Shown: piece by piece, positions 36,533-39,771 of the stretch
Numbering within the stretch: position 1 is the stretch's first letter
How the letters are laid out: each line of letters starts with the position of its first letter
From: Sneathiella limimaris
GTDB taxonomy: Bacteria > Pseudomonadota > Alphaproteobacteria > Sneathiellales > Sneathiellaceae
Length of the DNA: 64,000 bases
Direction of reading: 5' to 3'
Assembly: GCF_012932565.1 (NCBI RefSeq)
Contig: NZ_JABBYJ010000001.1
Coordinates: forward strand, 1,736,001-1,800,000
Notes under the pieces: model-generated
Told to the model about the DNA's origin: nothing
What the model saw: the letters and a program-made list of their open reading frames with translations, nothing else
Database searches by the model: none
Translations under genes and position numbers: made by a program

Positions 36533-36665
36533 TAATATTTGAAAAGCTCCGCACGGTTTGGGCGTGACCAAGGACACAATTTTGTGATTTAGGGTTTTGT
36601 AATAGTCGAAATCCATGCCCAAATCGTGTATTGAATTCATTTCAGTATTTTCGTGGTAGGTGTTT

Positions 36666-37538
36666 ATGAGCGTACAAGTAAAATTCTGGGGCGTAAGGGG
36701 TTCGATCGCAACTCCATCAGCAGACCATATGAAGTATGGTGGCAATACATCCTGTGTGGAACTTGTGCTTGACGATCAGATCGTCATTCTGGATGCCGGT
36801 ACCGGCGTTCGAATGCTTGGAAATTGTCTTCTGAATCGCAACCTGAAGAACTACCTCTTTTTACAATCTCATACACATTGGGACCATATTAACGGCTTTC
36901 CGTTTTTTGCCCCTGTGTATTGTGAAGACGTAAATATCCAAATTATGGCAGGTCATTTGTGCGATTGTGGCGGAATTAAAAAGGTTCTTTCCTCCCAAAT
37001 GTGCCAGCCGACTTTTCCAGTTCCATTTGAAGAGTTAGCCGCAAACATTGAATTTAAAGATTTTCGGTGTGGCGATGAATTTACCATTCTGGAAAAAACC
37101 AAGGTGAAAACGACCCCTCTTGTGCATCCTGATGGTGGTACGGGATATCGAATTGAACATGATGGTGTTGTCGTTTGTTATGTCACTGACACCGAGCATA
37201 CGCCTGGTGAGATGGACAAGAACATCCTCGAGCTGATCGAAGGGGCTGATCTAGTAATCTACGACAGTACCTATACAGATGAAGAGTATCCAAAATTTGT
37301 TGGATGGGGGCACTCAACTTGGCAGGAAGGTGTTCGTCTGTGTAAGGCGGCTGGTGCCAAACGGCTTGCAATCTTTCATCATGACCCTTCCCATGACGAT
37401 ACGTTCATGGATCAGGTCGCGGCAGATGCGGCAAAAGAATGGGAAGGTGCGTTTGTCGCTCGCGAGGGACAAATCGTTGAAATTGAAAACAGCAACATAG
37501 AAGATGGTGCTGTAAAGCTCAAAACCGCATTTGGTTGA
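36666..37538 (+). CDS. MBL-fold metallo-hydrolase
   Basis: The 290-residue protein has the metallo-beta-lactamase fold: N-terminal VKFWGVRGSIATPS, the GGNTSCVEL strand, the metal motif SHTHWDHINGFPFF (HxHxDH), a later His in LVHPDGGTGY, and Asp in YDSTYTDEEY. This subgroup resembles cyclic-nucleotide phosphodiesterase or phosphonate-cleavage hydrolases (PhnP-like), but the substrate is unknown. I chose the ATG at 36666, with TAGGTG just upstream; a GTG two codons earlier is in frame. Confidence 0.88.
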   Translation: MSVQVKFWGVRGSIATPSADHMKYGGNTSCVELVLDDQIVILDAGTGVRMLGNCLLNRNLKNYLFLQSHTHWDHINGFPFFAPVYCEDVNIQIMAGHLCDCGGIKKVLSSQMCQPTFPVPFEELAANIEFKDFRCGDEFTILEKTKVKTTPLVHPDGGTGYRIEHDGVVVCYVTDTEHTPGEMDKNILELIEGADLVIYDSTYTDEEYPKFVGWGHSTWQEGVRLCKAAGAKRLAIFHHDPSHDDTFMDQVAADAAKEWEGAFVAREGQIVEIENSNIEDGAVKLKTAFG

Positions 37539-37635: not shown

Positions 37636-38187
37636 GTGGTTGAAATTTGGATTGTCCGTCATGGGGAAGCAAGCAGTTCCTGGGATCAGGAAGCAGATCC
37701 CGGTCTAAGTATCCTGGGGCAAGAGCAGGCAGAAGCCGTCACACAGGAAATCCTGAAAACATTCAAGCCGGCAAAAATTGTCAGTAGTCCTCTAAAAAGA
37801 GCTCTTGAAACAGCGGCTCCTCTCTTTGAAAAGCTTGACGCTCGCAGAGAAATTAATTCCAACATTGCAGAAATTCCTTCAGGTGACATTCCGTTTGCTG
37901 AGCGCAGAGCCTGGCTAAATAAGTTGATGAAGGAGACTTGGGAAACCCAACCTGAAAACTTGCAGGTTTGGCGTGAAGGGATTTTGTCTACCTTAAAGAG
38001 CCAAACAGAAGACGTGGTTTTCTTTTCACATTTCATGGTATTAAATGTAATCGTTGGGTTTTTAACCGGTTCTGAGAAAATAGTCTCTTTCAAGCCAGAC
38101 AATTGTGCTATTACAAAAGTAAGTCTGGCCGACGGGGAGCTGGACCTGATTGATAAAGGGCGTGAAGCTCAAACAATCGTAAGGTGA
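37636..38187 (+). CDS. Histidine phosphatase family protein (SixA/PGM-like)
   Basis: The 183-residue protein starts with GTG at 37636 and has the phosphohistidine motif IVRHGEASSSW at its N terminus, the arginine of SSPLKRALETA, and the C-terminal His in FFSHFMVLN. It is closest by eye to the SixA/phosphoglycerate-mutase-like branch, which removes phosphate from proteins or small metabolites. SixA acts on phosphohistidine in HPt proteins, and an HPt-like gene lies 1 kb downstream, but a functional link is only inference. Confidence 0.85.
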   Translation: MVEIWIVRHGEASSSWDQEADPGLSILGQEQAEAVTQEILKTFKPAKIVSSPLKRALETAAPLFEKLDARREINSNIAEIPSGDIPFAERRAWLNKLMKETWETQPENLQVWREGILSTLKSQTEDVVFFSHFMVLNVIVGFLTGSEKIVSFKPDNCAITKVSLADGELDLIDKGREAQTIVR

Positions 38188-38245
38188 TTGGTTTGTTCTT
38201 TATAAGAACACCAAAGCAAGCGTAGAATGTGGAGACAATTTGTCC

Positions 38246-38695
38246 ATGAATCATACAGATAGTGAAAAACATCACTCAGATGAGAGCTATCGAGTAGAGG
38301 AACAGATTGGTTTTCTTCTTCGCAAAGCTCACCAAAAAGCGAGTTCAATTTTTCAGTCCCAATTCTCCGACTACCAAATCACACCTACACAATATTCAGC
38401 GATGTGTAAGTTGAAAGATGAAGGCGAGCTATCTCAAAATCATCTTGGACGATTAACAGCCATGGATCCTGCGACAATCCAGGGAGTTACGCGGCGCCTG
38501 ATTGAGCGTGGTCTGGTTGAGACACGGGCAGACGAGATTGATAAACGCCGAATGCAATTGAGGCTTACGCAGGCTGGCTCTGACTTGATCGATACATTGA
38601 TTGAAAAAGGTCGTATCGTAACGAAGAAAACGATGTCTCCTCTTAGTGAAGAAGAGCGTGAGACTTTTTTGAGCCTGTTGAAGAAGCTTTCTTGA
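38246..38695 (+). CDS. MarR-family transcriptional regulator
   Basis: The 149-residue protein has a MarR winged helix: FSDYQITPTQYSAMCKL, LSQNHLGRLTAMDPATIQGVTRRLIERGLV (recognition helix region) and the wing ADEIDKRRMQLRLTQAG. The ATG at 38246 is 11 nt from GGAG; a TTG at 38240 is closer to it, so the start is uncertain. The receiver gene starts 14 nt downstream, so the two are probably co-transcribed. Ligand and targets are unknown. Confidence 0.88.
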   Translation: MNHTDSEKHHSDESYRVEEQIGFLLRKAHQKASSIFQSQFSDYQITPTQYSAMCKLKDEGELSQNHLGRLTAMDPATIQGVTRRLIERGLVETRADEIDKRRMQLRLTQAGSDLIDTLIEKGRIVTKKTMSPLSEEERETFLSLLKKLS

Positions 38696-38709: not shown

Positions 38710-39261
38710 ATGGCAGAGTTAGATTTATCCGGGTTTACGATATTGGTAGTGGATGACAATAATTATATGGTCTCCCTGCTCAGACAAACTCTTGCTGGAC
38801 TTGGTGTCGGCAATATCAAAACATTTAATGATGCAAAGGATGCTATCGAGTTTGTTAAGCTTGTTGGGGAAAACCCGGTTAAAGCCGGTGCAATGCAAAT
38901 CGATTTTATCGTATCTAACTGGCAAATGGCGCCTATCGATGGATTGATGTTCTTGCGCTGGATCAGAACCCACAAAGATAGTCCAAACCGTTTCATCCCG
39001 TTTTTGATGGTGACGGGATTTGGGGACAAGGAAAAGGTTGAAGAGGCAAGAGACCTTGGGGTTAGTGAAGTTCTCGCAAAACCTTTTTCAGTGAATAGTG
39101 TCGCGGATAAAGTTCTACAGATTATTGGAACCAAGCGTCAGTTTGTTCAAACTGCGACTTATTTTGGACCTGATCGTCGCAGACAAAATTTGCCGTTTGC
39201 GGGAGATAATCGCCGGATCCTGACAGACAAAGACCCTCAAGTTAAAATTATTTACGAATAG
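38710..39261 (+). CDS. CheY-like receiver with Asn at the phosphorylation site
   Basis: This is a stand-alone receiver domain (about residues 9-135) with a C-terminal tail containing YFGPDRRR and GDNRR, seen in a group of alphaproteobacterial receivers. The acidic pair D15/D16, T102 and K124 (AKPF) are present. The expected phosphoacceptor Asp is Asn70, in FIVSNWQMAPIDG (codon AAC, 38917-38919). It therefore cannot be phosphorylated in the normal way, unless Asn is deamidated. It lies 9 nt upstream of an HPt-like gene, suggesting a phosphorylation-independent adaptor or a decoy. Confidence 0.88.
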   Translation: MAELDLSGFTILVVDDNNYMVSLLRQTLAGLGVGNIKTFNDAKDAIEFVKLVGENPVKAGAMQIDFIVSNWQMAPIDGLMFLRWIRTHKDSPNRFIPFLMVTGFGDKEKVEEARDLGVSEVLAKPFSVNSVADKVLQIIGTKRQFVQTATYFGPDRRRQNLPFAGDNRRILTDKDPQVKIIYE

Positions 39262-39270
39262 GAGCGGGGA

Positions 39271-39771
39271 ATGAACAAGCCAAAAATTACTGTTCGATTT
39301 TACCGCATTCGCAACCGCTTGATGGAAAAGGCAGGCGGTATTGGTGCAAATATGGAAACTAGTGTTTTCCCAAGGCATGTTCTGCAAGAGACAGAAGAGC
39401 TCTTTCAGGAGATGATTTCGGACTACCCAGACTGGGTTCAGGAAACACTTAATAAGCTTACAGCCCTTGTCGAGGTGTGTATTAACTTCGAGGACAAGCG
39501 AATTGTCACTTATAAGCAGATCCAAGAGATTGCTCACGAAATGAAAGGGCAGGGCGGGACTTTCGGATATCCGCTGGTGTCCACATTCGGAGATAGCCTT
39601 TATGATTTCACAGGGCCAAATGCGGGTTTGTCCGATAGCCATGTACAGATCATTAAAGCCCATACGGATGCAATGAAAGCGACAATAAATGGCAGAATTC
39701 ATGGTGATGGTGGCCAGGTCGGTCAGGAACTGAAAGCCATGTTAGCTCAGGCGATCAAGCAATATACTTGA
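39271..39771 (+). CDS. HPt-like protein, partner of the degenerate receiver
   Basis: The 166-residue helical protein contains IAHEMKGQGGTFGYPLVSTFGDSLYDF (about residues 87-113), which matches the histidine phosphotransfer motif H-x-[LM]-K-G-x-x-x-x-[FL]-G with His89 as the candidate phosphate carrier. GGAGCGGGGA lies just upstream of the ATG. It follows the receiver by 9 nt, and the 187-codon frame behind it overlaps its stop. I infer a phosphorelay or binding partner for a receiver; the normal phosphate donor is not in the immediate cluster. Confidence 0.75.
   Translation: MNKPKITVRFYRIRNRLMEKAGGIGANMETSVFPRHVLQETEELFQEMISDYPDWVQETLNKLTALVEVCINFEDKRIVTYKQIQEIAHEMKGQGGTFGYPLVSTFGDSLYDFTGPNAGLSDSHVQIIKAHTDAMKATINGRIHGDGGQVGQELKAMLAQAIKQYT

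Follow-up and report, generated by a model that had tools for sequence, protein, structure and literature searches.

Asparagine accounts for about 16% of the acceptor substitutions in aspartate-less receivers (PMC4395418), and the switching of such pseudo-receivers has been described as a mystery (PMC12632262). Like the receiver described here, RitR combines the receiver fold with an acceptor-site Asn (Asn53). The RitR pocket is also altered at other points (Lys10, Asp81), and Asn53 can be dispensed with (PMC4395418), whereas our receiver keeps DD2, T/S and K and has an HPt partner. In a survey of pseudo-receivers about 80% were non-acidic at DD2, and T and K were each retained in only about 65% (PMC12632262). 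In plants, one partner of an HPt-receiver system lacks its phosphorylated residue by nature, namely the HPt protein AHP6, whose His is changed to Asn (PMC6370222). This is the mirror image of the present case, the acceptor being missing from the HPt there and from the receiver here. Asp-type receiver-HPt (RR-HPt) pairs and fusions of other Alphaproteobacteria have the receiver tail, a KGQG-type HPt and adjacent or fused genes in common with the pair studied here, but differ in the acceptor, which is Asp, and in the residue at K-3, which is usually Phe.

A literature search found no primary paper on this receiver-HPt pair in Sneathiella or Kordiimonas. Asn pseudo-receivers as such are already known; as far as the literature searched shows, what is new is a deep clade of HPt-paired receivers changed at the acceptor alone, which has fused Asp-type relatives and which includes one reversion.

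An Asn-type receiver and its HPt-like neighbour

The pair is located in a window of 64,000 nucleotides of Sneathiella limimaris, which is the whole stretch of DNA analysed. The host genome comprises 3.66 Mb and its nearest named relatives also belong to Sneathiella. The CheY-like receiver (183 amino acids, from the open reading frame and its translation) contains D15, D16, T102 and K124, with Asn70 at the acceptor position, as read in the first-pass annotation, all of whose checked coordinates were right (Table 1). It matched the Pfam Response_reg family (PF00072) over residues 11-134 with 64.2 bits against a cut-off of 30.2 (E 1.5e-17) and, its phosphoacceptor Asp being replaced by a conserved Asn, it is on this count a putative member of the pseudo-receivers or aspartate-less receivers. 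CheY was the best-scoring named receiver family, but the NCBIfam CheY equivalog gave only 60.2 bits against a cut-off of 189; the FGPDRRR tail and Asn70 also distinguish the receiver from CheY.

Table 1. Features of the receiver-HPt locus, in positions of the window
Feature	Position	Strand	Basis
MarR-family regulator, 14 nt upstream of the receiver, linked only in Sneathiella	38240..38695	+	Pfam, gene-order comparison
Receiver, Asn70 at the phosphoacceptor position	38710..39261	+	Open reading frame, Pfam, orthologues
Asn70 codon AAC (phosphoacceptor position)	38917..38919	+	AAC/AAT in 62/62 Asn rows
Receiver C-terminal tail RQFVQ...FGPDRRR...KIIYE (residues 143-183), predicted strands, proposed HPt dock	39136..39258	+	Conservation, fused model, covariation
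HPt-like protein with CheA-P1-like fold, His89 in AHEMKGQGGTFGYPL	39271..39771	+	Pfam, AlphaFold model, fold comparison
HPt N-terminal extension, about residues 7-20, VRFYRIRNRLMEK	39289..39330	+	Model confidence alone versus beside the receiver
His89 codon, putative phosphorylated histidine	39535..39537	+	His in 62/62 pairs with an intact Asn-type receiver

The gene starting 9 nt past the receiver stop codon encodes a protein of 166 amino acids. It had been proposed to be HPt-like on account of His89, a proposal made dependent on an HPt fold in structure prediction, and the AlphaFold model supports such a fold, of the CheA P1 type. The model (pLDDT 83.9, pTM 0.70) has five helices across residues 35-165 and carries H89 in the helix 74-97, thus forming an HPt/CheA-P1 helical bundle with the His on a helix. 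In the fold comparison CheA P1 HPt domains came out on top, the best match being the P1 fold of CheA3-P1:CheY6 from R. sphaeroides (3kyi/3kyj, Z 13.4-13.5; 3kyj_A with Z 13.5 and rmsd 2.5 over 118 residues), a Z near 13 lying in the range in which the tool warns about helical bundles, since these score high generally. The Foldseek E-values were weak (best 0.036), and a search of solved structures by sequence gave no HPt among its matches, although the fold comparison did. With Pfam Hpt (PF01627) the window protein reached 22.0 bits (E 2e-4), just below the gathering score of 24.6, which the Oceanibacterium orthologue exceeded with 24.9 bits. The HPt motif (His, K/R at +3, G at +4) is present as H89, K92 and G93. 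Among 62 Asn-type pairs whose receiver is intact, H89 and G93 were found in all and K/R at 92 in 61, and the HPt His was kept in 62 of 63 partners checked. In contrast to CheA P1, the protein is stand-alone and has no kinase domains. The window genome contains eight Hpt matches, of which two belong to CheA-like ORFs and another two to small ORFs that stand alone; hence possible phosphate donors exist, none of which is linked to the pair.

The first-pass annotation had also suggested that the flanking MarR and membrane-protein genes may belong to the same unit. This holds in part: within Sneathiella the MarR gene lies 14-24 nt upstream of the pair and is probably co-transcribed with the receiver, but elsewhere it is absent from the neighbourhood. 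A PqiA-like membrane gene follows the pair in some Sneathiella genomes and is separated from it by a large ORF in two. A conserved operon with the MarR and membrane-protein genes was rejected outside Sneathiella, only the receiver-HPt adjacency being general. The intervening ORF between the HPt and PqiA-like genes has about 5.5 kb (L031 10571-16204, L114 9789-15365) and its start presumably resembles SpvB/RHS-type secreted repeat proteins. Upstream on the same strand, an RNase Z-like metallo-hydrolase gene and a histidine-phosphatase-superfamily gene (36660-37538 and 37636-38187) are linked in Sneathiella. SixA, an enzyme acting on HPt domains, belongs to the histidine-phosphatase superfamily. 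In Kordiimonadales a second small HPt, scoring 38.7 bits and thus above the Pfam cut-off, is encoded just upstream of the Asn receiver (e.g. L098 9045-9407). A gene for a large membrane-anchored coiled-coil protein is divergent to this small HPt, and an SpbR-family gene is found further out in several of these loci.

Conservation and history of the acceptor residue

Across 177 family receivers the acceptor residue was Asn in 69, Asp in 105, Glu in 2 and Ala in 1. Asn was present in every Sneathiella orthologue found (L002-L007, L034), in Oceanibacterium, Kordiimonas, Rhodothalassium, Iodidimonas, Eilatimonas and Hankyongella, and in many further lineages, so that Asn-type receivers span several orders of the Alphaproteobacteria. 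The alignment of homologues proposed in the first-pass annotation thus found Asn70 conserved, and Asp is not shared by all relatives. Of the 69 Asn rows, 67 retained every other catalytic residue (D/E-D, T/S, K); of the two exceptions, one is cut at a contig end and keeps T and K (L089), and the other is degenerate (L012). Positions 70, 71 (W71), 16 and 124 showed no change at all in 62 Asn rows, compared to 7 changes at the median site. Hence, judged from these comparisons, Asn70 is itself a conserved and selected state and is not drifting.

The surroundings of the acceptor differ between both types. Trp was found at D+1 in 69/69 Asn rows, and Ser at D-1 in 62/69 Asn rows versus 37/105 Asp rows, with Ala at this position in six Asn rows. 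The aromatic residue at K-3 (Y/T coupling) was kept in 92/105 Asp rows versus 19/69 Asn rows; counted on the tree, this contrast is weak (Asn background, 3 losses in 6.8 units; Asp background, 8 in 68). Members of the same GTDB genus belonging to other species and lacking the Asn pair (L025, L028-L030) contain a distantly related RR-HPt pair of the Asp type, flanked by other genes, and one locus has Glu at the acceptor position (L026). A search of a plasmid collection gave one distant match, which carries no annotation.

A tree was built on receiver and HPt with the acceptor column left out. In it, 19 Asp rows from Emcibacteraceae form a well-supported group nested among Asn rows, the outer relatives being Asp, and two D/N changes are needed in the thinned set. 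A single change was rejected, since trees uniting all Asn rows (or all Asp rows) failed the AU test (p = 0.0007). The simplest history for these sequences would be one change from Asp to Asn deep in the family and one from Asn back to Asp in the Emcibacteraceae. One further change is possible in the fuller tree, owing to where a small basal group of Asn rows is placed. At the codon level, AAC/AAT of the Asn rows and GAT/GAC of the reverted Asp rows are one transition apart. Position 77 is Asn in 15/19 of the Emcibacteraceae rows with reverted Asp70 (e.g. L057), which always have Glu at D+2, and is nearly always Asp in Asn70 rows. KGQG-type HPt proteins were detected in 149 of 385 sampled alphaproteobacterial genomes. 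A further sample of 76 receivers beside or fused to such an HPt comprised 63 Asp, 11 Asn and 1 Ala receivers and 1 that was unreadable.

Pairing, fusion and a proposed dock

In nearly every locus in which the pair was classified, the receiver and HPt genes lie side by side or are fused. Many Asp-type relatives encode both as a single fused protein (L011, L013-L015, L019, L109, L110 and others); no fusion with an Asn-type receiver was found among the family loci. The model of one fused Asp-type protein (L110) reached pTM 0.87 and pLDDT 90.5. It predicts strands at HPt residues 9-11 and at residues 145-147, 152-154 and 178-180 of the receiver tail, in which R143 and F152-R158 show no change in Asn rows. 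The N-terminal segment of the HPt had low confidence in the HPt-only model (blocks 57, 55 and 47) and about 91 in the fusion. Furthermore, the top inter-protein covariation in 161 pairs, of moderate depth (Neff about 103) and with few independent events, was between receiver residue 147 and HPt residues 11 and 9, which lie on two of the predicted strands; the pair 144-12 was also high, giving an antiparallel-like register. Covariation between receiver helix 1 and the His region of the HPt was not enriched. Together, model and covariation suggest that the receiver C-terminal tail and the HPt N-terminal strand may form a permanent dock.

Possible roles of an Asn-type receiver

The explanation that we tentatively place first, although it falls short of being probable, is a standing receiver-HPt pair with the receiver as a non-accepting regulatory subunit, which grips the phospho-His but does not take over its phosphate. 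Both proteins would be held together by the receiver tail and the HPt N-terminal strand, the Mg2+/Thr/Lys site of the receiver would still grip the phosphoryl group on His89, and Asn70 would block its transfer to the receiver. Charging of the HPt would be the task of a kinase elsewhere, and other receivers would take the phosphate from it, while the receiver of the pair may read, hold or meter phospho-HPt. Around the conserved Asn70, catalytic residues and His89, the constant pairing, the fused relatives and the one return to Asp, all established at the sequence level, we infer a physical complex of this geometry, a grip without transfer and a metering role. Two decayed members are instructive here. 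A Sneathiella relative with the gene order of the window (G010; L012; L114 8597-9651) has a receiver without D16, T102 and K124 and an HPt without the His, and another locus (L126) combines an HPt that retains its His with a receiver in which N70, D16 and K124 are gone together. Hence, the pocket residues are lost jointly, which would be expected of residues that cooperate. The second case also counts against the grip being essential, since an HPt that keeps its His beside a lost pocket can have a role without it. In one tested system, the plant receiver ARR22, D-to-N/A/E forms did not inhibit the relay (PMC6370222); thus, non-accepting receivers need not automatically tie up the HPt. The first-pass annotation had read the receiver as unable to take phosphate and as perhaps sequestering the HPt; of its interpretation, the conserved Asn70 and the adjacent HPt-type partner with its His are supported here, and the other two points are possibilities only.

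Alternatively, the receiver may be an ordinary pseudo-receiver or scaffold, in which fold and dock matter, no phosphoryl chemistry takes place, and activity is set via expression or binding. Most studied pseudo-receivers are viewed in this way (PMC12632262), and the loss of catalytic residues in the two decayed members as well as the variable K-3 would fit. A pocket without a chemical role should drift, however, and the invariance of Asn70, D16 and K124 in the 62 intact Asn rows counts against this reading, which we hold to be rather unlikely.

According to a further explanation Asn70 is a pro-acceptor, the intact site catalyzing its own deamidation to Asp, so that a new receiver would be silent and would become phosphorylatable with age or under certain conditions. 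Maule et al. (PMC4395418) state that Asn in the acceptor position of a receiver can quickly turn back into Asp, and that the relevance of deamidation in natural Asn receivers is unexplored. The intact remainder of the catalytic site and the single regain of Asp on the tree are in line with this idea, as is the Ser-Asn-Trp context, including its invariant Trp. The same context is reportedly that of CheY D57N, whose deamidation is said to have been followed experimentally by Wolanin, Webre and Stock in 2003, presumably the experiment meant by Maule et al. Encoding Asp directly would be simpler, though, and the frequent lack of the K-3 aromatic in Asn rows looks as if the switch were relaxed; as the tree-based contrast is weak, the latter is only suggestive and not decisive. 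On balance deamidation appears unlikely. There is a still smaller chance that a natural receiver encoded with Asn and self-deamidated inside a complete active site serves as a protein-age or condition timer on the HPt-receiver pair.

A transfer of the phosphoryl group to Ser69, the residue next to Asn70, is very improbable: CheY D57N was reportedly phosphorylated at Ser56 (Appleby and Bourret, 1999), and Ser is enriched at D-1 of the Asn rows, but the Ala found there in six of them means that Ser69 cannot be essential. A sequencing error, strain mutation or decaying gene, as the unusual residue and the HPt frameshift in a close relative might suggest, is refuted by the retention of Asn across many families and assemblies. 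This frameshift, of one base at about codon 109, after FGDS, was seen in the HPt gene of the closest relative, Sneathiella glossodoripedis (L002/L035), and may be either a draft error or a recent loss.

The receiver-HPt family represents a clean natural experiment, in which the acceptor alone is changed, the HPt partner is known from gene pairing, and fused Asp-type relatives as well as one reversion are at hand. The Asn-type receiver-HPt pair is a good test case for how receivers work without accepting phosphate.
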